Shown: positions 7,449-28,217 of the stretch, piece after piece
Layout: each line of letters starts with the position of its first letter
Position numbering within the stretch: position 1 is the first letter of the stretch
DNA from: Desulforegulaceae bacterium
Lineage (GTDB): Bacteria; Desulfobacterota; Desulfobacteria; Desulfobacterales; JACKCP01
Length of the DNA stretch: 64,000 nucleotides
Assembly (NCBI GenBank): GCA_034006035.1
Contig: JAVETN010000003.1
Location: 138,472-202,471 of the forward strand
Direction: 5' to 3'
Made by a program: the position numbers and the translations under genes
Notes under the pieces: model-generated
The model's input: only the letters and a program-made list of their open reading frames with translations
What the model was told of the DNA's origin: nothing
The model's database searches: none

Positions 7449-8207
7449 ATGGCCGGGTTTTCACTTGAAAATAAGGTAGCTCTTATAACAGGAGCAAGCC
7501 GGGGAATAGGAGAAGCTATTGCACATTGCTTAAGCGAGAATGGTGCAAAAATTATTTTGGTGAGCAGAAAAATAGATGCTCTTCAAAAAGTTGAAAACGA
7601 TATCAAGACAAAAGGCGGTCAGGCTGAATCAATGGCCTGTCATATGGGCGAAATTGATCAGATAAAAGCTCTTGTTCAATCAGTTAAAGAAAAATACGGA
7701 AAACTTGATATTTTAGTAAATAACGCAGCTGCAAACCCATATTTTGGTGATATGATTGATGCTGAAGAATGGGCCTGGGACAAGATTTTTGATGTAAACC
7801 TGAAAGGCCCTTTTTTTACAATAGTTGAATTTGCAAAGCTTATGAGGGAAAACGGAGGAGGAAGCATAGTAAATGTTTCTTCAATAAATGGAGTTCGTCC
7901 TGCAGCTTTTCAGGGAATGTATTCGATTTCAAAGGCAGCTCTTATTTCTCTTACAAAAGCATTTGCCAGGGAACTTGCTCCCCATAAAATAAGAGTAAAC
8001 GCTCTTCTTCCTGGACTTACAGATACAAAATTTGCAAGTGCTCTTACAAGTGATGAAAATTTAAAGAAAATGATAGTTTCCCAGATTCCCCTTGGAAGAA
8101 TTGCAGATCCTGAAGATATGGCAGGAGCGGTTTTATATCTTGTTTCAGATGCTGCTTCATATACAACAGGTTCATTGATTGTGTGTGATGGGGGTATGAT
8201 TGCATAA
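7449..8207 (+). CDS. short-chain dehydrogenase/reductase
   Basis: 252 residues from the ATG at 7449, which follows an AAGGAGG box; an in-frame ATG 51 bases upstream lacks one. TGASRGIGEAIA is the NAD(P)-binding loop, NNAAANP the structural motif, SSING supplies the catalytic serine, and YSISK is the YxxxK pair. The C-terminus ends with the classic LVSDAASYTTGSLIVCDGG. As a classical SDR it would oxidise or reduce a hydroxyacyl/ketoacyl group with NAD(P)H. It is last in the phosphatase-dehydrogenase-TetR-kinase-SDR operon and is followed by a clear terminator. Confidence 0.93.
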   Translation: MAGFSLENKVALITGASRGIGEAIAHCLSENGAKIILVSRKIDALQKVENDIKTKGGQAESMACHMGEIDQIKALVQSVKEKYGKLDILVNNAAANPYFGDMIDAEEWAWDKIFDVNLKGPFFTIVEFAKLMRENGGGSIVNVSSINGVRPAAFQGMYSISKAALISLTKAFARELAPHKIRVNALLPGLTDTKFASALTSDENLKKMIVSQIPLGRIADPEDMAGAVLYLVSDAASYTTGSLIVCDGGMIA

Positions 8208-8259
8208 AAAATAAAATTTTTTATTCCTCGGAACTTGTTAGAGGACCAATTACGCAAGT

Positions 8260-8292
8260 CAGGGCAGGAATTCTCCTGCCCTGCAATTTTTG
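8260..8292 (+). terminator. rho-independent terminator of the acyl-CoA operon
   Basis: 10-bp perfect stem CAGGGCAGGA / TCCTGCCCTG (8260-8269, 8274-8283), loop ATTC, followed by CAATTTTTGTTT on the + strand. It lies between convergent genes. Confidence 0.85.
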
Positions 8293-8301
8293 TTTAAAAC
8301 T

Positions 8302-9516
8302 TTAGTTCAGCCCAGTGTTTTTGTGAATATTTTTATATGCTTTTTTCATAATCTTTGTAAGCAAGTCAATGTCTGCTGGTTTTTCAAGGTAGGCAAAGGC
8401 TCCTAGTTCCATACATCTTTGTCTTTCAGTTTGATTTCCATGACCTGTAAGAATAATAATTTTAGTTCCCGGGCTTTTTTTCTTGGTTTCTTTCAAAACC
8501 TCATATCTGTCAAATCCAGGTAAATTCAGGTCAAGAATAATAACCTCGGGATGATCTCTTTTTATTATTTCAATAGCCTCCCTTCCTGTTGAAACCGGGA
8601 ATGAAGGCAGGTCTCTTATGGCAAGCCGCTCTGAAAGTGTCTGGATAAAATCAGCCTCTTTATCAACAAGAAGGACCTTGTGGGGTCTTTTAAAATTTCG
8701 ATCTGCCAAAATATCTGGCTTATAAAAGTTCTGTCCTATTTTTATTTTAACATTTGAAACTCCATCAATTGCTTTTGCAGCGTTTTTAAGTTCGCTTTTA
8801 AGTTTGGAAAGAAAAAGAACTTTTTTGTTTATTATAAGAGTGATATCACTGCCCTGGGCATCAACATCAAGATCAAAGCCTTGTTTGCAAAGCTCTAACC
8901 CAAGATTTGATTCAAGTTTAAAATCATTAATATGTTTTTTTGATAAATTTGAAAATTGGAGAAGAGGATTACCAAGGTAGCTTGAAATAAGTTTATATGC
9001 TCTTTCTGTTGTTGTTTTATCCATTGGAACCACCATATCATATAGTGATGGGTTCCATGGACCTGAGTTTTTTATATAATAAGAGAATTCATCTGCTTTT
9101 TCATCAGAATCAAGAATTTCTTTTTTTGCATTTTCTTTACTTATTCCCAAACTGGCTGCATTTTCAATTCTGTGCTGGTGTTCAGCAATTATAAGTATTC
9201 TTATGAGATGGTTTATTTTTTTGGGAAGAAGAAGGCTTGAAAATCCGTAAAATATCTGATCGTCCCCAATAAGCTTTGATACTGAAACTTTAAGTTCTGC
9301 CAGGGATTTTTCCTTTTCTCTGGTAAAGCTGTTGAAAAAAGAAGGAGGATTTAAAAAAACTTTTTTATAAGTATCTTTATTTTCATTGAATATTTTTGCA
9401 GCGGCTTCAACAATCTCATTGTCAGTTATAATTTTATACCCGTGATTTTTTCCCAGCTTTTTTACTAATTCTAAAGCCCCTGAATATTTGTCTGAAAATA
9501 TGCTTATTATTGGCAT
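8302..9516 (-). CDS. cytidylate-kinase-like / receiver fusion protein
   Basis: 404 residues. Residues 1-180 resemble the cytidylate-kinase-like family (AAK6): the end of that part, DSDEKADEFSYYIKN followed by WNPSLYDMVV, matches its conserved LID/acceptor region. However the P-loop (SDKYSGALE in place of a GSGG-type loop) is degraded, so catalysis is doubtful. A linker of about 205-265 looks like a BON-type alpha/beta module (tentative). Residues 279-395 are a receiver domain with phospho-acceptor D329, LTGHG and EKPAD; the acidic pair reads DK instead of DD or DE. It would be a phosphorylation-controlled protein without a DNA-binding domain. A perfect sigma-54 promoter lies 68 bases upstream. 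Confidence 0.75.
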   Translation of the reverse strand: MPIISIFSDKYSGALELVKKLGKNHGYKIITDNEIVEAAAKIFNENKDTYKKVFLNPPSFFNSFTREKEKSLAELKVSVSKLIGDDQIFYGFSSLLLPKKINHLIRILIIAEHQHRIENAASLGISKENAKKEILDSDEKADEFSYYIKNSGPWNPSLYDMVVPMDKTTTERAYKLISSYLGNPLLQFSNLSKKHINDFKLESNLGLELCKQGFDLDVDAQGSDITLIINKKVLFLSKLKSELKNAAKAIDGVSNVKIKIGQNFYKPDILADRNFKRPHKVLLVDKEADFIQTLSERLAIRDLPSFPVSTGREAIEIIKRDHPEVIILDLNLPGFDRYEVLKETKKKSPGTKIIILTGHGNQTERQRCMELGAFAYLEKPADIDLLTKIMKKAYKNIHKNTGLN

Positions 9517-9583
9517 TTAAATTTCTCCCGGTACTGATTTTGTGTTTCTTGCTGGTTTCCAGGTTGATCACTGCTTAGAGTAC

Positions 9584-9599
9584 AGCAAAATTAGTGCCA
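9584..9599 (-). promoter_or_regulatory. sigma-54 (-24/-12) promoter, perfect consensus
   Basis: Minus strand reads TGGCAC-TAATT-TTGCT, an exact match to the TGGCAC-N5-TTGCW consensus. It is intergenic and points at the cytidylate-kinase-like/receiver gene starting at 9516. Confidence 0.8.
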
Positions 9600-9643
9600 A
9601 ATTTAGTAAATCAAAAGCATAAATCCGGGATTTTAAGATTTTG

Positions 9644-10000
9644 TTATTTGAAAATTTCTTTAATTTTTTTTGTTAACTGATTAATATCAAGGGGTTTCAT
9701 TAAATAATCTTCAGCTCCAAGTTTCATTCCTTCCATTCCTTCTTTTGTTGACCCGTGTCCTGTAAGAAGAATTACTGGAAGAGAACTTTCAATTTTTTTT
9801 AGTTCAGCAAGCACTTCAAGCCCGCTCATACCAGGCATCATAAGATCAAGAACAACTAGATCAAAAGATTTTGAAAAAAAGATTTCAAGACAATTTTCTC
9901 CGCTGAGTGCAGTTGTAACCTCATAGCCCCTTAGTTTAAGCCTTTGAGCCAAAGTTTGGACAAATTCATATTCATCATCAACAAGTAATATTTTTTTCAA
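9644..10000 (-). CDS. single-domain response regulator
   Basis: 118 residues, a complete CheY-like receiver and nothing else. LLVDDE (residues 5-10), phospho-acceptor D52, LLTGHG and the KPLD lysine are intact. It starts 2 bases after the sensor kinase stop codon, so the kinase is its likely partner. With no output domain it probably relays phosphate or acts by protein contact. Fourth gene of the sigma-54-activator/NifX/kinase/regulator operon. Confidence 0.9.
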   Translation of the reverse strand: MKKILLVDDEYEFVQTLAQRLKLRGYEVTTALSGENCLEIFFSKSFDLVVLDLMMPGMSGLEVLAELKKIESSLPVILLTGHGSTKEGMEGMKLGAEDYLMKPLDINQLTKKIKEIFK

Positions 10001-10002
10001 AC

Positions 10003-11736
10003 TTATTCCTCCTCTGACATTGATTCATAGGTCTCTTCTTCGGGAAGAAGGATAGTGAACTTTGTTCCTTCATTTACTTTGCTGGTAAAGCTTAATTTGC
10101 CTTTCAGCTTTTTTACTATTCCATAGGTTATTGAAAGCCCAAGGCCTGAGCCTTGTCCGAGTTTTGTGGTAAAAAATGGATCAAAAATATGCTTTTTAAT
10201 TTCTTCATTTATTCCGCATCCATTGTCTTTGAAGTCTATTCCAACCATTTTTTGTTCAGAAAGGTAGTAGGAGCTGATTTCTATTTTTCCACCAGTGTTA
10301 ACGGCTGCCACGGCGTTTGTCATAATATTTAAAAAAACCTGCTGAACCTGTCCCTTGTCTGAAAAAATCTGAGGATTTTTAGGATCAAGGTCAAGCAAAA
10401 GCTCGATTTGTCTGAATGACGCTTCTTTTTCAAGAAATCCAAGGACTTCTTTAACTATGAAATTTACGTCCAGTTTTTCAAAATTAATATCAAACTTTTT
10501 TGCAAATCCAAGAAGCCTGTGAGTAACTGAACTGCATCTTGAAACTGAATTTATGATTGAGTTATTGTGCTTTAAAAACTCATCTTTTAATTCAAAATCT
10601 TTTGAAAAAGAAATAATGTCTTTCATAAGACCTGCTTTTTCATTGATTATGGCAAGGGGGTTGTTTATTTCATGGGCAACTCCTGCTGCAAGGCGACCTA
10701 TTGAAGATAGTTTCTGGGTGTGCTGAAGCTGTTTCATTGCAGTCTCTCTTCTGTCATCAGCTGTTTTTATTCTATTTGTGACAAGGCTTGAAAGTTTCAT
10801 TGAGGCAATTACAATTATAAGAATGCTTATTCCCAGAATAAAAAATATTTCACTTTTTAAGGAGTACCATGAATTGAGAAGCAGTGATTTTGGTTTGACT
10901 ATTACAATTATATAGTCTGAGTGAACCCTTGTTAGCCCGGCAAGAACCTGTCTTTTTTTAGGATCTGTAATTTCAGTTATAAAAGTACCATGGATATTCT
11001 CCGGCAGATCAAGAAGGCATTTTTCCATTACATTGCCGTAATACCTTGATGATGTCTGAAGAATTTTATTTTTGTTTAAAATAAAAGCGTCACTTTCAGG
11101 GCCGAGATTGACTGAATTGACAAGTTCTTCGTATTTTTCTGTGTCAATAGTTGCCCTTAAATACCAGGTTTTTCCCTGGTCTGTAACTCTTTCAACGACA
11201 TAAACTATATGGGGAAACTTTCTGTATCCCATAAAAACATCGCTGATATAGGTTCCTCTTACTTTTACTTCTTTGAAAGAATCCTGTTGGGAGTAGTCTT
11301 TTCCAAGGAGTTTATAGGGGCCTTCATAGCTTTGAAGGATTCCGTCTTCATTGATAACACCTAGATCAACAAATCCTGAAAACTCGTTTCTTAAAGATTT
11401 GAAAATTTTTTTTATAGTATCAGGATTCTGGAGTTCTTCATGGGAATATGCATTGGAAATAAATCTTATAGTCGAAAGCCTTTCTTCAATGAAGATTTCA
11501 AAGGCGTATTTTATATCATTAAGAATATTGTGAAGGGGTGCTTTTATTTCTTTTTGAAGGCTTTCTTTATATTGATGATAATTTATTATTGCCATTATAG
11601 TTAGGGGTAAAATGGTTATCATTGTGAAAAGAAAGGCTATGCTTCTTTTCATTTTCACATATCTGTAAGGCTGCCTTAAATGTTCAGGAGGGGTTTTGAA
11701 AAAATAAAAAAGATTATTCATAAAGGTTTTTTTCAT
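10003..11736 (-). CDS. dCache-type sensor histidine kinase
   Basis: 577 residues. TM1 about 32-50, an extracytoplasmic double-Cache domain 55-285 (FVDLGVINEDGILQSYEGPYKLLGKDY), TM2 about 297-315, a short linker, HisKA with phospho-acceptor H355 (AGVAHEINNP), and HATPase with N box (NIMTNAVAAV), DNGCGI G1 box, FFTTKLGQGSGLGL. The Cache domain is closely similar to those of the kinases at 18180 and 35643, all DctB-like in layout, so a small carboxylate or other anion ligand is likely (inference). Its start overlaps the NifX-like gene by 23 bases and its stop nearly touches the response regulator gene. Confidence 0.93.
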   Translation of the reverse strand: MKKTFMNNLFYFFKTPPEHLRQPYRYVKMKRSIAFLFTMITILPLTIMAIINYHQYKESLQKEIKAPLHNILNDIKYAFEIFIEERLSTIRFISNAYSHEELQNPDTIKKIFKSLRNEFSGFVDLGVINEDGILQSYEGPYKLLGKDYSQQDSFKEVKVRGTYISDVFMGYRKFPHIVYVVERVTDQGKTWYLRATIDTEKYEELVNSVNLGPESDAFILNKNKILQTSSRYYGNVMEKCLLDLPENIHGTFITEITDPKKRQVLAGLTRVHSDYIIVIVKPKSLLLNSWYSLKSEIFFILGISILIIVIASMKLSSLVTNRIKTADDRRETAMKQLQHTQKLSSIGRLAAGVAHEINNPLAIINEKAGLMKDIISFSKDFELKDEFLKHNNSIINSVSRCSSVTHRLLGFAKKFDINFEKLDVNFIVKEVLGFLEKEASFRQIELLLDLDPKNPQIFSDKGQVQQVFLNIMTNAVAAVNTGGKIEISSYYLSEQKMVGIDFKDNGCGINEEIKKHIFDPFFTTKLGQGSGLGLSITYGIVKKLKGKLSFTSKVNEGTKFTILLPEEETYESMSEEE

Positions 11737-12094
11737 TTACTTCCTTTCCTTCTATTCTTTTTTTAAGGAGAATATCCCCGTTTTTCAGTTTTCCATTAAA
11801 AAATCTTTTAGATGCTTTTCTGAAAGAACCTGCCACATTTTCAATGATTTTTATTTTCTTCCAGTTAAGATATTGGTAAAATTCATCTTCTATTCCGCAA
11901 CAGATAAGGGTTTCAATTCCTCCTGTAAGAATCAGATGACAGAGCTTGTCAGCGGAAGCCTGGGGCAGAACTATTATTTTTTCCTCGGGCTTTTCTTCAC
12001 CTTTTTCTTTGAAAAGTATAAGCACTTCTGTTGCCAAGTCGAATCTTGGAGCAATTTCATTTCCTGATATTGGTATGATTATTTTTTCAGCCAT
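11714..12094 (-). CDS. NifB/NifX-family (dinitrogenase cofactor biosynthesis-like) protein
   Basis: 126 residues with the Nitro_FeMo-Co fold: MAEKIIIPISGNEIAPRFDLATEVLI at the start, ASADKLCHLILTGGIETLICCGIEDEFYQYL in the core. This fold binds iron-sulfur/molybdenum clusters in NifX/NafY, but many sulfate-reducer homologues are of unknown function. No nif genes lie nearby. It is wedged between the sigma-54 activator (6 bases upstream) and the kinase (23-base overlap), so it looks like part of the signalling unit, perhaps a redox or metal sensor. The role is inferred. Confidence 0.72.
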   Translation of the reverse strand: MAEKIIIPISGNEIAPRFDLATEVLILFKEKGEEKPEEKIIVLPQASADKLCHLILTGGIETLICCGIEDEFYQYLNWKKIKIIENVAGSFRKASKRFFNGKLKNGDILLKKRIEGKEVNEKNLYE

Positions 12095-12100
12095 TGTTTT

Positions 12101-13531
12101 TTATCCGATCTCATATTTTTTCATCTTTCTCCACAGGGTGGTTCTTCCCCAGCCTAAGATTTCTGCTGCTTTGGATTTGCTTCCCCCTGATTTTAGAAGA
12201 GCATCTATGATAAGTTTTCTTTCAATTTCTGGAAAGGATGAAAAGCTTGCTGTTTCAATTGTTGTTTCTTTTTGTTCCGATTTGTCTGGGTTGCTATGTT
12301 TTAGCACTTCTTCTGACCCGGATGTTGTGTCTTTTGAAGGTTTGTCCCTGTGCTGAATATATGCTGGAAGATCTGGGGGGGCAATTTTTGAATTTTGGCA
12401 GACGTTTGCCGCATATTCTATTATATTTCTTACTTCTCTTACATTGCCGGGGTAAGTATATTTAACCAGAATTGATTTTGCCCGGGAGTTGAAACCAGAT
12501 ATTTTTTTATTTAAAGATTCATTGAATTTTTTAAGAAAATGGTTGAGAAGAAGGAGAAGGTCGTCGTCTCTTTCTCTTAATGGGGGAAGGTGAATTCTTG
12601 CCACATTAAGTCTGAATAACAAGTCCTGCCTGAAGTTACCTTCTCCTACCATTTGTTCAAGATTTCTATGGGTTGCTGCAATTATCCGGACATTTGCTTG
12701 GAATCCTTTTGTGCTGCCAAGGGGATATACCACTTTATCATCAAGAAAAGTCAGCAGTTTTACCTGAAGGGTCAAGGGAAGATCCCCAATTTCAGTGAGA
12801 AAAAGAGTTCCATTATGTGCTAGCTTAAATCTTCCGGGTTTGTTTTCAACAGCACCTGTAAAGGCTCCTTTGTTGTGTCCAAAAAGTTCACTTTCAAGCA
12901 GTGTCTCAGGAAGTGCACCGCAATTAACTTTTATAAAAGGGCCTTCAGATCTTTCAGATGCCCTGTGCATTTCTTCAGCAAGAAGATCTTTTCCTGTACC
13001 TGTTTCACCTGTGATAAGAGTTGAAGCATCGCTTTGGGCAAGCACAGGAAGAAGTCTGTAAATTTTAGCCATTTCCGGACTTCTTCCTATTATGCTTGAA
13101 AAACTTAAATCCTCTTGATAATTTTTTGTTTTATTTTTTTCTTTTTCCGGTTTTTTTACAATGAGGATATAGCCTTGTTTATTTGCTGAAGAATCGTAAA
13201 TTTCTGAAAAAAGAATTTTTACAGGAATTATTTGTCTGAAGGAATTTAAAATATCTGTTTCAATAAAGTTGTTTTCCATTTTTGTTTCAGGTTTTTTTAA
13301 AGGACATTCATGGCCGCAATGCCTGGTTTTTAAAAAATATCTGCACGGGAGGCCCAGTGCTTTTTCAAGGGAAAGATCAGAAATTGTTTTTGTTTTTGAA
13401 TTAAAAAAAACCAGATTGAGCTCATTATCTAGGATAATAATAGGATGATCAAAAGCATCAAAAAGTTTTTCTAAATTTGTTCCTTTTTGGAACAAGCCTC
13501 TAGCTATGGGAGGCGAAGTTAGCGGGTTCAT
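12101..13531 (-). CDS. PAS-AAA-Fis sigma-54 activator with Cys-rich PAS
   Basis: 476 residues. PAS domain at 20-125 with a C63, H71, C72, H74, C76 cluster that could bind metal or sense redox. AAA+ domain 143-370: Walker A GETGTGKD (175-182), GAFTGA loop (222-227) that contacts sigma-54, and a Walker B reading TLFLTEIGD, where the usual first acidic residue (DE) is a threonine (T246). C-terminal Fis-type HTH about 430-476 (SGGSKSKAAEILGWGRTTLW). No receiver domain, so it is controlled through PAS and perhaps the NifX-like protein. It is the first gene of the operon. TGAAACA/TGTTTCA repeats lie upstream. Confidence 0.93.
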   Translation of the reverse strand: MNPLTSPPIARGLFQKGTNLEKLFDAFDHPIIILDNELNLVFFNSKTKTISDLSLEKALGLPCRYFLKTRHCGHECPLKKPETKMENNFIETDILNSFRQIIPVKILFSEIYDSSANKQGYILIVKKPEKEKNKTKNYQEDLSFSSIIGRSPEMAKIYRLLPVLAQSDASTLITGETGTGKDLLAEEMHRASERSEGPFIKVNCGALPETLLESELFGHNKGAFTGAVENKPGRFKLAHNGTLFLTEIGDLPLTLQVKLLTFLDDKVVYPLGSTKGFQANVRIIAATHRNLEQMVGEGNFRQDLLFRLNVARIHLPPLRERDDDLLLLLNHFLKKFNESLNKKISGFNSRAKSILVKYTYPGNVREVRNIIEYAANVCQNSKIAPPDLPAYIQHRDKPSKDTTSGSEEVLKHSNPDKSEQKETTIETASFSSFPEIERKLIIDALLKSGGSKSKAAEILGWGRTTLWRKMKKYEIG

Positions 13532-13797: not shown

Positions 13798-14250
13798 TTA
13801 AACACTCATATGATCAGTTGTTTCATGGGATTTTAAGTCAATATTTGTAAAAAAATTTTCTGAAATTACCTCAGAAATTCTCCATTCAAGCTCTTTGTAA
13901 TCAATAGGTTTTATAAAACAGTCAACAGCTCCTAAATCAATAATTTCCATGGCTTCAGAAAGGCTTAATATTTCTGCTGCAACAATTATTTTTGTGTAAG
14001 GCTTCAGCCTTAGTATTTTTAAAAGTGAAACAATGGCATCACTGGCATTTTTATAGTCAAGAACAATACAATTGGAGCTTAAGTCAATTGAAAAGGAAAC
14101 AATATTTGCAGCTGAAGATTTTATTGGAGTCATGCCCATATTTTTAATTTGATTTATTATTTCATCTGATACAGCATCCCCTCCGACCAGAATTTCTGGC
14201 TTTTCAAGAGAATTTGTATAGGTATTTTCATATTTTTTAAAATTTTTCAT
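13798..14250 (-). CDS. orphan divergent receiver-domain protein
   Basis: 150 residues. CheY-like fold is recognisable from CIVLDYKNASD (candidate phospho-acceptor D65), IIVAAE in place of the ILTG switch strand, and IDLGAVDCFIKPIDYKELEW with the conserved lysine. The N-terminal acidic pair is poor (GGDAVSDE), so phosphorylation may be weak or absent. No output domain. It stands alone between its own sigma-54 promoter (14303) and a terminator (13665). Function unknown; possibly a phosphate sink or protein-interaction regulator. Confidence 0.7.
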   Translation of the reverse strand: MKNFKKYENTYTNSLEKPEILVGGDAVSDEIINQIKNMGMTPIKSSAANIVSFSIDLSSNCIVLDYKNASDAIVSLLKILRLKPYTKIIVAAEILSLSEAMEIIDLGAVDCFIKPIDYKELEWRISEVISENFFTNIDLKSHETTDHMSV

Positions 14251-15319: not shown

Positions 15320-17173
15320 TTAAAATCCGGGAAGTCCGCCAAAGCCTCTCATTCCCCAGTAAACCATGGTAAGAGCCAGGAGAACTACGTTTGCAACAAC
15401 CCACATGATTCCACCGATTCTTAAAAAATCCTTGGGCTCAAGATAACCGCTGGCATATACAATTGCATTTGGAGGAGTACCTATAATAAGAAGGTATGCA
15501 AATGAAGATGCACAGGCAGTACTCATGGCTATAAAAGGAAGAAATGATGTGCCGGGATGTGCAAGAGCTGCAAGGTTAAGAGAGATAGGACCAACTGCAG
15601 CAGCAGCAGGACCGTCTGCCATAAGGTTTGTCATTATTGCTGTAAGTCCGTTGTTTACAAGCATAAGAGGAGCACCGCTGTTTATTCCTAAAGGAGCAAG
15701 CAGGTCTAGAACTGATCTTGCCATCCAGTAAGCAGCACCTGTGGAGTCAAGTGTACGTCCAAAAATAATTGCACCTGCATAAAGCCATACAACACCCCAG
15801 TCCACTCCTTCCTGATAATCCCTCCAGTTAACAATTCCTGCCATTATATAGGCAACAGCACCTGCAATAGCAATTACACCTATTCCAAGCCGTACTGGAA
15901 TAATTCCTGAGGTGTAAAAAAGTTTTTCAGTAAACCATCCAAAAACCATGATAACAAAAATGATAAGGGCAATTATCTGATGCTTGTTCCAGGGTCCCAT
16001 TTTATCAATTTCGCTTTGAAGATGCCTCATGGCAGGTCCAAGATCTGTAACCAGTGGTTTAAATCTCCAGTTTAAAACCAACCATGTTATTGGCATCATT
16101 ACTATTACAAATGGCATTGCATAGGTTACCCACTCAAAATAACCAATGTTGAAGCCAAACATATCTTCAAGATAGGTCATCATTATTACGTTTCTGGCAC
16201 CGCCTGAGGGAGCTCCAAATCCACCGATATTACATGCCATGGCAATACCAATCATAAGCATTTTTCCAAGTTCGGGATCTGAAGGCACATCTTTTGTAAG
16301 GCTGTTTTCGTATAAAAGAATACCAATAGGCAAAAACATTGCTGCAAGTGCATGATCTGAAATAAATGCAGCAAGAGGCGAGATTATAAGAAAAAATATA
16401 AGAGTAATCCATTTCACATTGGGGGTTGCAAGTTTTCTGAACATCATAAGGCAGACTCGCTTGTCTACACCGGTTCTGACAAATGCCACAGCAAACATCA
16501 AGCTACCCATGATAAACCAACAGGCATCACTCCAGTAGAGCATGGCAACTTCTTGACGTGTTACAACATTGGTAAACATAAAAATAAGGCCTATGCAGAA
16601 AGCAACTGCTGGAAGAGGGATACATTCTGTAAAAAAACAGAATACTATGAAAATTGTTACCCCTATTGAAACCTTGATTTTCCAGGCACTTTTATCTGCG
16701 GCAGCCCTGTCTTTTACTGAAAGATCTTCATATTTTAAAACATCTCTTCTTAAATCAAGAAGTTCTTGTGAAAGAGCTGAAAAAGATTCCTCAGTAAAAT
16801 TTGCTTCAACAAATTTATGGGCTTTTGCTAAGTTTTGTGAATCACAATCAATTTTGTATTTTTTGCACCATTTTGCATCTCTTTTTAAAAACCTTGCTTT
16901 TGACATTGCACCCATCTGCATGTTTTGATCCATCATTCTTCCCGTCAAAAGCTGCCATTGTTCGGCATCCGATGCTTTTACCTTAAAAACTTTTTCTGTT
17001 ACATGGTTTACCACTACCTTAGGGCCTATAGCATACTCTGTCCCAACATCTTTCATTCCATAAGGTGTAGGCATGAAAAGGACTACAAACAATAACACCA
17101 CCGGGATAATAAAAAGTTTCCAGTCAACATACTTGTCATATCCCGTTGCTTTCTCTTTTTTAGTGTTTTCCAT
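15320..17173 (-). CDS. DASS/SLC13 family sodium-coupled anion permease (large, with extra loop)
   Basis: 617 residues. About 13 membrane segments. TM1 at 17-35 is followed by an unusual soluble insertion of about 120 residues (about 40-165) before the transport core. Core motifs: IAMACNIGGFGAPSGGARN in the first half and MTNLMADGPAAAA then IIGTPPNAIVYASGYL in the second, corresponding to the paired substrate/sodium sites of the family. The second half keeps TPPN; the first has GGARN. DASS proteins import dicarboxylates, tricarboxylates or sulfate with sodium. It is encoded 30 bases after the receiver-CBS gene, in an operon with a dCache kinase, so the kinase probably senses the transported anion. 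Confidence 0.9.
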   Translation of the reverse strand: MENTKKEKATGYDKYVDWKLFIIPVVLLFVVLFMPTPYGMKDVGTEYAIGPKVVVNHVTEKVFKVKASDAEQWQLLTGRMMDQNMQMGAMSKARFLKRDAKWCKKYKIDCDSQNLAKAHKFVEANFTEESFSALSQELLDLRRDVLKYEDLSVKDRAAADKSAWKIKVSIGVTIFIVFCFFTECIPLPAVAFCIGLIFMFTNVVTRQEVAMLYWSDACWFIMGSLMFAVAFVRTGVDKRVCLMMFRKLATPNVKWITLIFFLIISPLAAFISDHALAAMFLPIGILLYENSLTKDVPSDPELGKMLMIGIAMACNIGGFGAPSGGARNVIMMTYLEDMFGFNIGYFEWVTYAMPFVIVMMPITWLVLNWRFKPLVTDLGPAMRHLQSEIDKMGPWNKHQIIALIIFVIMVFGWFTEKLFYTSGIIPVRLGIGVIAIAGAVAYIMAGIVNWRDYQEGVDWGVVWLYAGAIIFGRTLDSTGAAYWMARSVLDLLAPLGINSGAPLMLVNNGLTAIMTNLMADGPAAAAVGPISLNLAALAHPGTSFLPFIAMSTACASSFAYLLIIGTPPNAIVYASGYLEPKDFLRIGGIMWVVANVVLLALTMVYWGMRGFGGLPGF

Positions 17174-17203: not shown

Positions 17204-18103
17204 TCAGACAATAATGTTTATCATTGCAAAGAAAATATCCTGCTCTCTGACTATTCCAATCACCCTGTCCTTATCTTTTACAAGTACCCTTCTTCTTCCG
17301 CTTGTGTAAATCAAGTCAGCCACCTCCATGAGGTTTGCGTCTTTATCTACTATAGGCGGTTTTTCAGACATTAGTTCACTGACCTTTTTATTTTCTATTT
17401 TTTTTGTCTGAAGGGTGAAAAGACCGTCCCAGAACATGCTTGAATACTGAACTGAATCAGCCATTGAAGGTTTTGGAGCTGAGAGGTAGCCAGGCCTTAT
17501 TGACTCGAGAAGATCATAAATTGTTAGAAGACCGATTTGTTCTTGTTTGTCGTTCATTACAATTATTGATCTATGTCCCGACACAATAAAAGATTCGCTT
17601 GTAAGTGAGGGCTTAAAAGAGGCAAGAAGAATGGTCATAGCTTCTTTTACAGTTGCATTCATGGAAACAGAGGAATAGTTTTCAATCCATGTCATTACAT
17701 CAAAAGCTTTTTTTTCTTTTTTCTTTTCAAGGTGATACCTGTCGTCATAGGCTTCTCTGATTTTCATTGACAAGATATCAATTCCACAAGGTTTGCTAAG
17801 ATAGTCAAAAGCCTTTTCTTTTAGTGCTTTTTCAGCAGAATCTGCTGAGCCGTGGCCTGTGAGCATTATTACCCTGATTTCAGAGTCGATTTCCTTGATT
17901 TTTGAAAGGGCGGCATGGCCATCCATTCCTTTCATTTTTATATCAAGAACAACAACATCCTGTGGCTGTTTTCTCACAATTTCAATAGCTTCTTCTCCGC
18001 TTTCAGCCATGGTAACTTCAAAACCTTTTTTTTGTAGAAGTTTTGAGGTTGTTTCACGAAATCTGGCTTCGTCATCAACCATTAGAACTTTGACTTTTTC
18101 CAT
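17204..18103 (-). CDS. receiver-CBS response regulator
   Basis: 299 residues. Receiver 1-122 with VDDE (9-12), phospho-acceptor D54, MLTGHG and KPCG. Then a two-CBS module: ENYSSVSMNATVKEAM... MTWI region about 140-205 and VSELMSEKPPIVDKDANLMEVADLIYTSGRRRVLV about 243-285. No DNA-binding domain. CBS pairs bind adenine nucleotides, so it may gate the transporter or kinase according to energy state (inference). It lies between kinase and permease genes, all on the same strand. The CBS module resembles that of the stand-alone protein at 38066. Confidence 0.88.
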   Translation of the reverse strand: MEKVKVLMVDDEARFRETTSKLLQKKGFEVTMAESGEEAIEIVRKQPQDVVVLDIKMKGMDGHAALSKIKEIDSEIRVIMLTGHGSADSAEKALKEKAFDYLSKPCGIDILSMKIREAYDDRYHLEKKKEKKAFDVMTWIENYSSVSMNATVKEAMTILLASFKPSLTSESFIVSGHRSIIVMNDKQEQIGLLTIYDLLESIRPGYLSAPKPSMADSVQYSSMFWDGLFTLQTKKIENKKVSELMSEKPPIVDKDANLMEVADLIYTSGRRRVLVKDKDRVIGIVREQDIFFAMINIIV

Positions 18104-18179: not shown

Positions 18180-19865
18180 TTATATTTTTTCTGAATCAAA
18201 GGGGAGTCTGATTAGAAATTGGGAACCCTGTCCATATTCGCTTGTAAGGGTCATATCTCCTCCAAGTCCTTTGATGATTCCATAGACTGTGCTCAGTCCA
18301 AGGCCTGTGCCTTCACCAACAGGCTTTGTTGTAAAAAATGGCACAAAAGCTTTTTCAAGCTCTTCTTTGGTAAATCCGCAGCCATTGTCCTGAAAAATTA
18401 TTACTGCATCTGAGTTTTCTTTTTTAATGGATATTTTTATTTGCCCGTCTGACCTGCCCTTGAGAGCATAAATCGAGTTGTTTAAAAGGTTTAAAATTAC
18501 CTGTTGAATCTGGCCGGCATCGCTTTTCATCAAAGGGAGATTTTTTTCAATTTCCTGGATTATTTTTACATTTTCAACCCTTGCTTTTTCATCAACCATA
18601 TGAACAATTCCAGGAATTGTTTCTTCAAGGGAAAAGGCTTCAAAACTTGCTTCATCTTTTCTTGCAAAAGTAAGAAGGCCCCTTGTTATTTTTCCGCATC
18701 TTGTTACCTGAAGTTTTATTTGCTCAACACAGTCGGTTAAGGTGAAAAGTTCGTCTTTAATTTTTGAAGTATCTGTTTTGTTTATATCTTTAAGACATTC
18801 ATCAATCATTGCTGTTTCTGATTTGATAACCTGGAGGGGGTTGTTGATTTCATGGGCTATTCCTGTGCTCATTTCTCCAACTTCAGCAAGTTTTCCTGCG
18901 ATTATTAGTTGGGTTTTCATTTCTTTTTTTTCAGCATTGGCAACTCTTAATCGGTTTGCCATGTTTGAAGCCATTATAAATCCTGTTACAACTACAATGG
19001 TTCCTCCTGAAAAAATTATTAAAACAGAAACCACGGCTGCCATAAAAAGAGGAAAATACGCATCAAGAGCCTCCTGTCTTACAACAAGGGCCCATTTGAC
19101 TTCAGAAAGAGGGACTGCACAGTAAATGTATTTAAATCCAGACATTCCTCCTCCAAAAAACGAAGAGGGATTATTGTCTTTGTTGCTTTCAATATGGTTA
19201 AAATAATTTACCATACTTGAGTTGTCGTCTTTTCCTTTCATGGTTTTTAAAACACCTTCCTTGTTTATTATATAAGCATGGCCTGTTCTTCCTATTCTTA
19301 TACTGTAAACAAGAGTGTTGAAAAAATGGGTATCAATTGTAGTTCTTAAATACCATTTGCCTTGGTTGTCCTCTTTTTTTGCAGCAATTATAAAATGGGG
19401 GATTTGTCTGAAGCCAAGAAATTCATCGGAAATAAAAAAACCATTTTTTTCAACCATCTTAAACCAGGTCTCATTGTAGTAGTTTTTCCCTTCCAGGTTG
19501 TAGGGGCCTGCATAGGCAACATGGTTTCCTTTTGAGTCAAAAACGCCTAGGTCAACAAAGGCTGTTGATTGGGATTGGAGGTTATTGAATATTTTTAATA
19601 AATACTCTTTATTTTTAAGGTCTTCAAAATCGTGGTTGTCTGCAAGAAGTTTTAAAATTCCTGATTTTTCATTTAAAAAGGAGTCGACCATGTCTCTGTG
19701 ATCACTGGCTATCCTGATTAATTTGTTTTCAACTTCTTTTCCTGAGTATGAAACAAAGTAAAAAACTATAACAGCACAAACCAGGAGAAGAAGGGTTACA
19801 GGAAGCATGACAACCCTTGTAAAAATCATTTTCCCCATTTTTTTTCTATAAGCTTGTTCTTCCAC
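18180..19865 (-). CDS. dCache-type sensor histidine kinase of the DASS operon
   Basis: 561 residues. TM1 about 14-40, extracytoplasmic dCache domain 45-265 (FVDLGVFDSKGNHVAYAGPYNLEGKNYY; ISDEFLGFRQIPHF), TM2 about 273-299, HisKA with H338 (GIAHEINNPLQV), HATPase with NLLNNSIYAL, DNGCGFT and FFTTKPVGEGTGLGL. All catalytic boxes intact. First gene of a kinase / receiver-CBS / DASS / small membrane protein / YIP1 transcription unit. A perfect sigma-54 promoter lies 60 bases upstream. Confidence 0.93.
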   Translation of the reverse strand: MEEQAYRKKMGKMIFTRVVMLPVTLLLLVCAVIVFYFVSYSGKEVENKLIRIASDHRDMVDSFLNEKSGILKLLADNHDFEDLKNKEYLLKIFNNLQSQSTAFVDLGVFDSKGNHVAYAGPYNLEGKNYYNETWFKMVEKNGFFISDEFLGFRQIPHFIIAAKKEDNQGKWYLRTTIDTHFFNTLVYSIRIGRTGHAYIINKEGVLKTMKGKDDNSSMVNYFNHIESNKDNNPSSFFGGGMSGFKYIYCAVPLSEVKWALVVRQEALDAYFPLFMAAVVSVLIIFSGGTIVVVTGFIMASNMANRLRVANAEKKEMKTQLIIAGKLAEVGEMSTGIAHEINNPLQVIKSETAMIDECLKDINKTDTSKIKDELFTLTDCVEQIKLQVTRCGKITRGLLTFARKDEASFEAFSLEETIPGIVHMVDEKARVENVKIIQEIEKNLPLMKSDAGQIQQVILNLLNNSIYALKGRSDGQIKISIKKENSDAVIIFQDNGCGFTKEELEKAFVPFFTTKPVGEGTGLGLSTVYGIIKGLGGDMTLTSEYGQGSQFLIRLPFDSEKI

Positions 19866-19925: not shown

Positions 19926-19941
19926 AGCAAAGAGAGTGCCA
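19926..19941 (-). promoter_or_regulatory. sigma-54 (-24/-12) promoter, perfect consensus
   Basis: Minus strand TGGCAC-TCTCT-TTGCT, exact consensus, in front of the kinase gene that starts at 19865. Confidence 0.82.
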
Positions 19942-23970: not shown

Positions 23971-24005
23971 TTTGTAAAAATAAAAATGTATAATATTTTT
24001 ACAAA
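23971..24005 (-). terminator. AT-only hairpin at the end of the receiver gene / upstream dyad of the kinase
   Basis: 11-bp perfect arms TTTGTAAAAAT (23971-23981) and ATTTTTACAAA (23995-24005), 13-nt spacer; the right arm covers the stop codon of the receiver gene. Followed by TTTTATTT on the minus strand, so it may terminate. The same dyad lies 51-100 bases upstream of the sigma-54 promoter at 23905 and may double as an activator site. Confidence 0.45.
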
Positions 24006-24352
24006 AATGCGGTTGTTTGAATAAATTTTTTTACAGTTTCAATACTTTCAGCATTTTTTTCCACAAAATAAAGTTTTTTATTTGGGTAAAAAATATCTCT
24101 CCATTCATCGTAGGCATGAACTATAATAATGGTTTCAGGAGATATTTCATTGATTTTTTTTATAAATATCAAAGGGTTTATTGTCAAAAACTCAGGATCA
24201 AGAATTATTGTAAAAGTTGTTGGAAATTTTAAAAATTCAATTATTTCCTCCTGGTTAAAATCCTTTTTAATTTTACAGTTAAGGTCTTCAAACTCCCGTG
24301 AAATAAGCTTTCTAATATGAGGACTTTTATCTGTTACTATTATTGTTTCCAT
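23999..24352 (-). CDS. orphan divergent receiver-domain protein
   Basis: 117 residues from the ATG at 24352, which has a GGTGGG box; the ORF opens 42 bases earlier without one. Receiver-like: METIIVTDKSPHIRKLI at the start, candidate phospho-acceptor D52 in TIILDPEF, then IIIVHAY in place of the switch strand and FVEKNAE with a possible lysine. Only one acidic residue in the first pocket, so phosphorylation is doubtful. Alone between a sigma-54 promoter (24390) and its hairpin. Function unknown. Confidence 0.65.
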   Translation of the reverse strand: METIIVTDKSPHIRKLISREFEDLNCKIKKDFNQEEIIEFLKFPTTFTIILDPEFLTINPLIFIKKINEISPETIIIVHAYDEWRDIFYPNKKLYFVEKNAESIETVKKFIQTTAFL

Positions 24353-24389
24353 TTTCCCACCTTTTATTAAAGGTTCTTTTTTATTAACT

Positions 24390-24405
24390 AGCAAAACTTG
24401 TGCCT
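24390..24405 (-). promoter_or_regulatory. sigma-54 (-24/-12) promoter
   Basis: Minus strand AGGCAC-AAGTT-TTGCT, 38 bases upstream of the receiver gene. It is back to back with the + strand element at 24463. Confidence 0.72.
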
Positions 24406-24478: not shown

Positions 24479-24534
24479 CGGATAACAAATAGCAGCTTTT
24501 TGGTAGAGGCTGTTTTTTAGATATGGAGGGTTTT

Positions 24535-26316
24535 ATGAGAAAAGATAAATTTAAAGGTTTGATTTTAATTTTTATAGTGGTTTTTCTTTTTGCTTATCCT
24601 GGGTTTTGCTTTGAAGATATTCCAGAAAATATTGGCTTTGAGTCAAAAAATATTTTTTATCCTGTTGTATTAAGTGTGTTTGCAGGTTTTGTCTTTTTTC
24701 TCATGGGGATGGATTCCATGACTCTTGCCTTGAAAAATTTTGCAGGAACAAGTTTTGGGAAAAGAATTAAAAATATTACAGGAAACAGAATAAAAGGATT
24801 TTTTACAGGAATATTTTTAAGTGCATTGTTCCAGTCCAATTCTGCAGCCACAGTAATGGTTGTTGGTTTTGTTCAGGCAGGTCTTGTCAGGTTTTCTTCC
24901 AGCCTTGCCATTATTCTTGGTGCAAATGTCGGAGCAACTCTTACAACCCAGATAATTGCCTTTAGCATTTTTCAATATTCAGTTTTTTTTGTGGGTGGAG
25001 GGTTTTTTTTAAAAATATTTTCCAAAAAGGCGGTTTTTAAAAATATTGGAAATACTCTTATTGGTTTTGGTCTTCTTTTTTATGGGATGGATCTTATGTC
25101 CCAGGCTGTTCTTCCTTTAAAAGAAAGTCCTGAAGCAGTAGTTTTTTTGCAAAAATTTTCACCTCCTTTTTATTCCCTTTTAGTTGGTGTTCTTTTTACC
25201 GCTGTAATCCAGAGCAGCGCTGCATCAACCGGTATTGCAATGGTAATGGCTGAAGGAGGTCTAATCTCTGTTACCTCTGCTGTGTCTGTGATGATAGGTG
25301 CCAATATAGGAACCTGTGTTACAGCACTTCTTGCCTGTATTGGAGCTTCAAGAGAAGCAAAAAGAACAGCTTTAGCACATTTGTTTTTCAAGACATGTGG
25401 TGCTGTGGTGTTTTTTTCAATGATTCATTCTTTTACATTTTTTTCTGAATATATAACTTCTTTTTTTAGTGAGTCCCCCTCAAGAATAATTGCAAATGCA
25501 CATACTCTCTATAATATTGGAATAGCTTTAATTTTTCTTCCTTTCTGCGGAATTATAAGTGTTTTTCTTATGAGAATTTTTCCTGATAAAAAATCTGATT
25601 ATGAAATTGTTTTTGAATCGGTTCTTGATACTGATAATCTTCCTCCCCCAGAAGCTGCCCTTGACCTTGTAAAAAATGAAATTTCAAAAATTATTGGAAT
25701 TTTAAATGAAATGGTTATTGCAGGTTCTCTTTTGTTTATAAAAGAAAAACCTCCTCAGGATAAAAGGTTTTTTTCCAAAAATGTCCTTGAAGGGATTTCT
25801 ATAAGAGGTGATGAAATAAGATTTTTAGAAGAAAAAATAAGCTCCTATCTTTTTAGGATTGTAAGAAATGATATTCCAAGAAACAAGGTTGCAAAGGCTT
25901 ATGCTTATATTTCTATTTCAAAGGATCTTGAGAGTATAGGTTCCACAATTTCCCAAACATTGCCAAGACTTTATGAAACAAGGAAAAATATAAAAACTTA
26001 TTTTTCAGAGGCTGGTTTTAAAGAGCTTTCCGAATTTCAGCTGAAAACCTTGAAACAGATTTCCAGACTTAAAAGTGTTTTTGATGAATCTGATGTTGAT
26101 GCTGTGGTAAAAGTTATGAAAAAGGAACAGGCCTATCTTGATCTTCATATGAAGTATCGTGTCAGTCATTTTGCAAGAATAAGCCAGCTCAGAAAAGAGT
26201 CGGTAGAAACCCACAAGCTTCACATGGGCCTTATGGATCTTATGATTTCTCTTATTGCCTATTCAGGAAATATTGCAAAAACCTATTTTGAAATGTCTGG
26301 AATTAAAGGTGATTGA
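24535..26316 (+). CDS. Na/phosphate cotransporter family protein (NptA/PhoU-like)
   Basis: 593 residues from the ATG at 24535, which has GGAGG 5 bases upstream; that box lies within the first codons of a longer ORF starting 12 bases earlier. Hydrophobic leader, then two inverted transport repeats with QSNSAATVMVVGF ... GANVGATLT and QSSAASTGIAMVM ... GANIGTCVTALL, the signature of the NaPi-II/NptA family. The C-terminal 200 residues are a cytoplasmic PhoU-like helical domain. Expected to import phosphate, or a related anion, with sodium. Unlike a typical Pho gene it sits behind a sigma-54 promoter and among two-component genes. Confidence 0.88.
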   Translation: MRKDKFKGLILIFIVVFLFAYPGFCFEDIPENIGFESKNIFYPVVLSVFAGFVFFLMGMDSMTLALKNFAGTSFGKRIKNITGNRIKGFFTGIFLSALFQSNSAATVMVVGFVQAGLVRFSSSLAIILGANVGATLTTQIIAFSIFQYSVFFVGGGFFLKIFSKKAVFKNIGNTLIGFGLLFYGMDLMSQAVLPLKESPEAVVFLQKFSPPFYSLLVGVLFTAVIQSSAASTGIAMVMAEGGLISVTSAVSVMIGANIGTCVTALLACIGASREAKRTALAHLFFKTCGAVVFFSMIHSFTFFSEYITSFFSESPSRIIANAHTLYNIGIALIFLPFCGIISVFLMRIFPDKKSDYEIVFESVLDTDNLPPPEAALDLVKNEISKIIGILNEMVIAGSLLFIKEKPPQDKRFFSKNVLEGISIRGDEIRFLEEKISSYLFRIVRNDIPRNKVAKAYAYISISKDLESIGSTISQTLPRLYETRKNIKTYFSEAGFKELSEFQLKTLKQISRLKSVFDESDVDAVVKVMKKEQAYLDLHMKYRVSHFARISQLRKESVETHKLHMGLMDLMISLIAYSGNIAKTYFEMSGIKGD

Positions 26317-26658: not shown

Positions 26659-26733
26659 ATGGAATTTAAATCTCTGGAAGGATTTAAAGGTAAAACAGTT
26701 TTTAAACTTAAAAGTTCTGAGCATTGGAGGTAA
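26659..26733 (+). CDS. possible 24-residue leader peptide
   Basis: ATG at 26659 preceded by GAGGAG with suitable spacing; 24 codons (a lysine-rich peptide starting MEFKSLEGFKGK) ending at TAA 26731-26733, six bases before the DASS start codon. Its end overlaps the DASS ribosome site, so translation of the two could be coupled. No similarity recognised; it may be fortuitous. Confidence 0.35.
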   Translation: MEFKSLEGFKGKTVFKLKSSEHWR

Positions 26734-26738
26734 GGGTC

Positions 26739-28217
26739 ATGGCATCGATTGCAACGCGAATGGGTAAGCTTGATATTGATTGGATGAAGTTAGGTTTTCT
26801 TTTTTTTGGGGTAGCTCTTTTTATTATAGTCTATTTTTCACCACAATGGGTTGATGCGGTTGACCCTGAAGGAAAGCATTTTCAGCTTTCAAGGGAAGGG
26901 AAAGGTGCTCTGGCAGTATTTCTTCTTGCGGGTATCTGGTGGGTGTTTGAAGTACTTCCCATTGGGATTACAAGTCTTACAATTGGAGTTTTACAGGTAT
27001 TGTTTTTAATAAGGCCTGCTAAAGTCGCATTCAAGGATTTTATGGATCCTTCGGTTCTTTTTATTTTTGCATCTTTGGTAATAGGAATGGTTTTTACCAA
27101 AACCGGGCTTACAAAGCGGCTTGCATATAAAATGCTTTCTTTTGTTGGTGAGCGAACAAGTATGATTTATTTGGGATGCTTTGTTGTGACTGCACTTTTA
27201 ACCCATATAATGGCACATACTGCAGTAGCAGCAACTGTTTATCCCCTTCTTATGACAATTTACAGCATGTATTCCGACGATGATAAGCCTACAAAGTTTG
27301 GTAAGGGTCTTTTTATAGGAATGGCTTTTGTTGCTGGAGCTGGAAGTATTGTAACTCTTCTTGGTGCTGCCCGAGGAGCTGTTGCCTTGGGGTTTTTCAA
27401 GGATATTATAGGAAGAGAAGTGTCTTTTTTTGAGCTTTCTTTTTATATGTTTCCAATAGGCTGGCTTATGGTTTTGATCCTTTGGGGCTTTTTCATGATA
27501 TTTTTCAAGCCTGAAAAAAAGACAATACCCGGGCTTAAAGAAAGAGCCAAGCAGATGAGCAAAGAAATGGGTAAATTTACAAGACAGGAAATACTTGCTG
27601 CTGTAATTATATTTTCATGCATTTTTGCTCTTTCACTTCGTTCATTTGTTCCAGCTCTTGAACCATTTGATAAAACCGCAATTATTCTTGTATCTACAAT
27701 TTTATTTTATGTTTTTGGAATTTTAGATCTTCAGGATCTTGAAGCTGTTCCATGGAATATAGTTCTTCTTTTTGGTGGAGCCATGAGTATAGGTTTTTGC
27801 CTCTGGGAAACAGGTGCTGCAGAATGGCTTGCTATTCACTGGTTGGGCTTTTTTCTGGAATCACACTGGTTTGTATTTGTCATAGGAATTTCATTTTTTG
27901 TGATGGTAATGACAAACTTTATTATGAACGTTGCAGCCATAGCTATTTCTCTACCTGTGGCACTTGTTGTTGCTCCATATCTTGGAGTTGCTCCTGAAGT
28001 TATTCTTTTTGCGTCCCTTATAACAGCAGGTATGCCGTTCTTACTTCTTGTTGGTGCTGCTCCAAACGCTATTGCATACGACTCAAAACAATTTACAACA
28101 GGTGAATTTTTCCTTGCAGGAATTCCGGCAAGTATTATTCTTATCATAGTGGTTGGTCTTGCAGTTTCTGTAATTTGGCCTATGATGGGAATGCCAATTA
28201 CAATTCCAACTCCATAA
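26739..28217 (+). CDS. DASS/SLC13 family sodium-coupled anion permease (compact)
   Basis: 492 residues from the ATG at 26739, with GGAGG 8 bases upstream; the ORF opens at a TTG 15 bases earlier that overlaps that box. About 12-13 membrane segments. First-half site reads GAGSIVTLLGAARGA, second-half sites MTNFIMNVAAIAISLP and LVGAAPNAIAYDSKQF. PPN is replaced by APN and the first half lacks the usual TPPN, hinting at a different substrate from classic dicarboxylate carriers. It lacks the long loop after TM1 seen in the other two DASS proteins here. Probably controlled by the sigma-54 promoter at 26559. Confidence 0.88.
   Translation: MASIATRMGKLDIDWMKLGFLFFGVALFIIVYFSPQWVDAVDPEGKHFQLSREGKGALAVFLLAGIWWVFEVLPIGITSLTIGVLQVLFLIRPAKVAFKDFMDPSVLFIFASLVIGMVFTKTGLTKRLAYKMLSFVGERTSMIYLGCFVVTALLTHIMAHTAVAATVYPLLMTIYSMYSDDDKPTKFGKGLFIGMAFVAGAGSIVTLLGAARGAVALGFFKDIIGREVSFFELSFYMFPIGWLMVLILWGFFMIFFKPEKKTIPGLKERAKQMSKEMGKFTRQEILAAVIIFSCIFALSLRSFVPALEPFDKTAIILVSTILFYVFGILDLQDLEAVPWNIVLLFGGAMSIGFCLWETGAAEWLAIHWLGFFLESHWFVFVIGISFFVMVMTNFIMNVAAIAISLPVALVVAPYLGVAPEVILFASLITAGMPFLLLVGAAPNAIAYDSKQFTTGEFFLAGIPASIILIIVVGLAVSVIWPMMGMPITIPTP

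Follow-up and report, generated by a model that had tools for sequence, protein, structure and literature searches.

The window analysed here is a stretch of 64,000 nucleotides from the genome of a Desulforegulaceae bacterium, which encodes a response regulator named CK-REC after its cytidylate-kinase-like and receiver parts. The gene, its domains and its promoter are placed as follows, with residues numbered on the protein:

8302-9516, minus strand: CK-REC (cytidylate-kinase-like, BON-like and receiver domains), 404 amino acids; open reading frame, Pfam, orthologues
9019-9510, minus strand: cytidylate-kinase-like domain (NMP-kinase fold), residues 3-166; PF13189 and fold match to 3hdt_A
9472-9498, minus strand: residues 7-15 (FSDKYSGAL), where the glycine loop has been lost; alignment of 108 CK-REC proteins and 42 free-standing relatives
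8731-8970, minus strand: BON-like domain, alpha-beta-beta-alpha-beta, residues 183-262 (about); Pfam BON in orthologues, model and fold search
8350-8676, minus strand: receiver domain, residues 281-389; PF00072 and structure matches
8659-8661, minus strand: codon AAA of K286, second acidic position (D in 107 of the 108 CK-RECs)
9584-9599, minus strand: perfect -24/-12 sigma-54 site TGGCACTAATTTTGCT, 83 nt before the start codon of CK-REC; motif scan

Pfam assigns the N-terminal part to PF13189 (Cytidylate_kin2) with 62.9 bits (cut-off 28), over positions 1-175 of the 176 of the model, and the C-terminal part to the Response_reg family PF00072 with 75.7 bits. An AlphaFold model built on an alignment of 63 orthologues has a mean pLDDT of 85.6; its N-terminal part superposes on 3hdt_A, a kinase-like structure of the PF13189 family, with Z 20.1 and an rmsd of 1.9 A over 162 residues, a match also returned by Foldseek (E 2.8e-8), and its receiver matches many receiver chains with Z about 20-22. 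Phmmer with the kinase-like part as query gave no real match among PDB sequences, the relation being visible by fold comparison only. The original prediction, made from the letters alone, had placed a cytidylate-kinase-like domain at the N-terminus and had named structure prediction with a fold search for an NMP-kinase fold as its check; profile and predicted fold both bear it out, 3hdt being the fold in question. The family name AAK6 is supported by no search, since the matched family is PF13189; the domain list was correct for the kinase-like part and the receiver, but a third domain between them had been overlooked.

This middle domain, folded alone, gives an alpha-beta-beta-alpha-beta arrangement with a pLDDT of 85.4. 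The Pfam BON profile (PF04972) matches 39 of the 63 orthologues, with a best E of 8.5e-5, and does not match the window copy. DolP, OsmY, Kbp and BonA are among the fold matches, with Z of only about 7; the best Z, 8.6, belongs to a non-BON ring-building domain, and ring builders of secretion systems tie with the BON proteins. The domain is named BON-like, and its assignment as BON is of moderate confidence, as judged from predicted structures. No DNA-binding domain was found in CK-REC by Pfam.

CK-REC is surrounded by signalling and transporter genes:

9644-10000, minus strand: single-domain receiver; PF00072, 107.5 bits
10003-11736, minus strand: sensor histidine kinase, dCache-like sensor with HisKA and HATPase; Pfam, orthologue adjacent in most relatives
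11714-12094, minus strand: small NifX/MrpORP-like protein (Nitro_FeMo-Co), conserved in clusters of DASS type; PF02579, 22 bits, below the cut-off
12101-13531, minus strand: sigma-54 activator (EBP), PAS-like, AAA+ and Fis-type HTH; Sigma54_activat 223.9 bits, HTH_8
15320-17173, minus strand: DASS/Na_sulph_symp transporter 1; PF00939, 162 bits
17204-18103, minus strand: response regulator with receiver and CBS, adjoining the DASS transporter
18180-19865, minus strand: dCache sensor histidine kinase
19926-19941, minus strand: another perfect sigma-54 site, preceding the histidine kinase (18180-19865), receiver-CBS and DASS genes; motif scan
26724-28217, plus strand: DASS/Na_sulph_symp transporter 2, of the type that adjoins CK-REC in relatives; PF00939, 158 bits
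32932-34530, minus strand: DASS/Na_sulph_symp transporter 3; PF00939, 174.2 bits

The window thus holds three Na_sulph_symp (DASS) genes within 26 kb, and a cache-domain kinase and receivers lie beside DASS in a genome that bears dsr genes. Besides the three DASS genes, the 20-kb island at 13798-34530 encodes several histidine kinases, many single receivers and, at 24523-26316, a Na/Pi cotransporter; the gene at 17204-18103 is a second local regulator with an output domain of adenosyl-ligand type (CBS), and weak, degenerate receiver-like proteins are encoded at 13798-14250 and 23999-24394 (PF00072, E about 0.003-0.007).

The 80 named loci with CK-REC come mostly from Desulfobacterota: Desulfobacterales, Desulfobulbus, relatives of Desulfovibrio, Desulforhabdus and relatives of Desulfarculus. 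Of the 57 other genomes searched within the order, 34 together have 35 full-length copies with 30-43% identity, so that 35 of 58 carry the gene when the window's own is counted; in the phylum, it is present at full length in 28 of 247 drawn genomes. The gene dsrA scores above the cut-off in 27 of these 28 genomes, compared with 97 of the 219 without CK-REC (Fisher p 4.9e-8 over the 247 genomes, kinship ignored), and the window genome has dsrA too. In that genome, about 4 kb separate dsrA from the sole SulP gene (G000, contig C4, 55382-61870).

The commonest gene order is TetR, SulP, CK-REC, dCache histidine kinase, single receiver, small H-box protein, receiver. In 67 of the 80 named loci, kinship being ignored, the gene directly upstream of CK-REC and in the same orientation is SulP, and SulP or DASS is near CK-REC in 75 of the 80; of the remaining five, two come from contigs shorter than 8 kb. 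In the SulP-type cluster, CK-REC is the sole receiver protein with an output domain. The second order, of DASS type, is that of the window: EBP, NifX-like protein, histidine kinase, receiver, in some cases the H-box protein, CK-REC, receiver, DASS. Both types occur together in one locus (L048, genome G046), where tandem CK-REC genes at 8135-9358 and 9401-10612 are one of SulP and one of DASS type.

Sulfate as the substrate of SulP and DASS is the published assignment for relatives. Clusters of such make-up were published in 2025 as sulfate-uptake systems of Desulfobacteraceae (PMC11887813) and share with those described here DASS or SulP transporters, cache-domain kinases, receivers, CBS proteins and a TetR regulator; the kinases were proposed there to sense external sulfate, and the CBS proteins to respond to APS, ATP or the energy state. 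The main text of that paper names regulators of WalR type and does not contain a cytidylate-kinase-like one. In the literature searched, no description was found of a cytidylate-kinase-like response regulator or of a link between cytidylate kinase and sulfate transporters; thus, gene clusters and domain families are already known, whereas their combination in CK-REC and the association with sulfate uptake seem not to have been described there. The expectation that such an output would be unusual among response regulators holds in this last sense only, since CK-REC is common in sulfate-reducing Desulfobacterota.

The small H-box protein beside CK-REC (for example L026:756-1418, and 60 similar genes) has the H-box in 59 of 61 copies and the N-box in none of the 61; full kinases keep both. 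These small proteins, with their degraded ATPase domain, are probably histidine phosphotransfer proteins. ChpT and Spo0B are histidine phosphotransferases and serve as a model by analogy; the small protein of the relatives resembles this type in its sequence, with a conserved H-box and a degraded ATPase part. Gene content suggests, by the same analogy, a relay from the histidine kinase to the single receiver, from this to the phosphotransfer protein and then to CK-REC.

The fate of the nucleotide-binding loop was followed in the alignment of 108 CK-RECs and 42 free-standing relatives. Short free-standing relatives from the same genomes have the loop R-x-x-G-[AS]-G-G-[KR] (SRQFG[AS]GGK), with G11 conserved in 100%, and G13, G14 and R8 in 97% each; free-standing relatives with an extra domain have R-G-S-Y-S-K-G-K-E. 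In the fused family, the same position reads S-G-x-[FY]-C-N-E-E, and FSDKYSGAL in the window copy: the loop glycines and R8 have no consensus counterpart, and the glycine loop is gone in 108 of 108 CK-RECs. The LID-type arginine R141, present in 94-100% of the free-standing relatives, falls to 28% in the CK-REC family and is A141 in the window copy. Core positions G91, R116, D138, Y159 and D160 are retained; new near-invariant residues have appeared in the motif FNxFTHEKE (F61, N62, F64, T65, E67, E69) and at H103, W144, W154, P164 and K167. Since the loss is common to all 108 proteins, it is old, under constraint and no damage specific to the window genome; on these sequences, the kinase-like part of CK-REC is an old pseudoenzyme. 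The broken loop that had been predicted is therefore real, as the window copy shows beside its free-standing relatives, and profile, predicted fold and the loss throughout the family all speak for a pseudokinase-like output domain in a response regulator; the earlier reading was largely right about the pseudokinase, but CK-REC proves to be a component of sulfate-uptake clusters across the lineage, no peculiarity of a single genome.

In the phylogenetic tree, fused CK-RECs form one clade (support 100/97), whose sister group consists of free-standing kinase-like plus BON-like proteins (e.g. L053:10103-10903 and L134:14506-15348). These share the same C-terminal extra region and sometimes adjoin CK-REC in the same genomes; however, they keep a G/K-rich loop (GSYSKGKE) and have no receiver. 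Similarly, compared with the PF13189 structures 3hdt and 3fdi, with which it shares profile and fold, CK-REC is without glycine loop, R8 and LID arginine, and adds the BON-like and receiver domains. CK-REC probably had a single origin, in which a kinase-like protein already bearing the extra domain gained a C-terminal receiver and lost its phosphate-binding loop.

As CK-REC almost always adjoins a sulfate transporter, it probably signals how much sulfate is to be taken up, and its best reading is as the sole non-receiver output of a sulfate-uptake phosphorelay. More fully, it is reasonably probable that a pseudo-NMP-kinase and a BON-like domain together form the output of this conserved relay, with ligand and target as we infer them. 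In most sulfate reducers, the dCache histidine kinase would pass its phosphate to the single-domain receiver, from which it would reach the phosphotransfer protein, a kinase remnant with intact H-box and degraded ATPase, and then CK-REC, which would tune sulfate uptake by SulP or DASS transporters. This control would probably occur by protein contact, the simplest reading for a regulator that has no DNA-binding domain and is the only output-bearing receiver protein of the SulP-type cluster. A second input may come from a nucleotide of sulfate activation (AMP, APS or ATP), read by the remodelled kinase pocket. That the relay ends in a pseudo-kinase which senses APS, AMP or ATP and directly gates both SulP and DASS is a tentative and rather doubtful proposal; if true, sensing of external sulfate and of the energy state would be joined in one protein. 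How costly sulfate uptake and activation are matched to supply in sulfate reducers is an open question of large geochemical weight; CK-REC, being the only output-bearing response regulator of the SulP-type cluster, offers a single concrete gene with which to ask how the signal reaches the transporter, and the repertoire of response regulators gains a pseudoenzyme output.

The strict linkage of CK-REC and transporter genes, the missing DNA-binding domain and the new conserved motifs peculiar to the fused form would also suit another function, in which the kinase-like and BON-like parts are only a scaffold for docking or dimerisation and bind the transporter (e.g. the STAS domain of SulP) upon phosphorylation of the receiver, with no small ligand; several core residues common to the free-standing relatives stay conserved, however, and this alternative is considered rather unlikely. 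The same core residues, G91, R116, D138, Y159 and D160, could instead belong to a domain that is still an active nucleotide kinase with an unconventional loop, switched on and off by the receiver, and the loop of the whole family is indeed already divergent (GAGGK or SKGKE versus GxxGxGK); an active kinase is nevertheless improbable, because loop glycines, R8 and the LID-type R141 have been lost together throughout the family.

The sensory relay proposed for most CK-RECs cannot simply be transferred to the window genome, since its copy of the receiver carries D286K and the genome is without the phosphotransfer gene: unlike in the relatives, no small H-box gene of ChpT/Spo0B type was found in this assembly, which is 97.7% complete. 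The receiver site consists of D285, K286, D329, T357 and K379, with the motif VDKEAD. The five residues DD/D/T/K are complete in 106 of the 107 other family members and incomplete in the window copy; the acidic pair is DD in 107 of 108 CK-RECs and DK in the window copy alone, and the active-site lysine is kept in 107 of 108, the exception being L057 (K379R). A single sequencing error at K286 is unlikely, as the codon AAA is two changes away from GAT or GAC. The published definition of pseudo-receivers (PMC12632262) fits the window copy, where a lysine replaces a metal-binding acid and one of the five active-site residues is absent, but it differs from the other members, which keep the pair. 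The DK pair of the original prediction is hence present as described, although it had to be rejected as a family trait; control by phosphorylation, also proposed there, fits the family, with 107 of 108 members for both the acidic pair and the lysine, and is doubtful for the window copy. L057 is likewise without a neighbouring phosphotransfer gene, and two cases of altered receivers are too few for a conclusion.

The sigma-54 promoter was searched with the consensus TGGCAC-N5-TTGCW, to which two perfect sites conform in the window, against 0.04 expected; the predicted promoter of CK-REC itself, at 9584-9599 on the minus strand, is one of them. On the tree, the window copy lies on a long branch within a minority clade of its own, linked to DASS (support 100/95), and eight relatives of this DASS clade have a site with at most two mismatches, 63-117 nt upstream of CK-REC (none in L044; one in L051, L054, L056 and L125; two in L048, L120 and L142). 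Among SulP-type loci, a two-mismatch site occurs in L091 alone, the others having at least three mismatches; the promoter is thus conserved in the DASS clade. The EBP at 12101-13531 is the likely activator of the window sites. With no phosphotransfer gene found in the genome and a lysine, K286, in place of a metal-binding acid, the window copy may be controlled chiefly through sigma-54-dependent expression rather than phosphorylation.

The K286 residue, unique among 108, the long branch and the phosphotransfer gene not found in the window genome could also mark a decaying relic without function. This is quite improbable, since the reading frame is intact, the sigma-54 promoter is conserved, and the protein deviates in 7 of 77 near-invariant columns, fewer than four other members; a broad decay of the window copy is accordingly not supported. 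Sensing of redox state or sulfide by two cysteines in place of the loop, Cys12 and Cys108, which occur together in 87 of 108 CK-RECs (SulP type) of sulfide-producing hosts and in none of the 42 free-standing relatives, is very improbable, as the DASS-type clade has neither, including the window copy (S12, L108), and nine sequences have one cysteine only.

Beside two CK-REC genes, a free-standing kinase-like plus BON-like protein (L105:11352-12203 and L109:11352-12203) has a partly degraded loop, SDSYKTGRE; these proteins are perhaps a second pseudoenzyme line.
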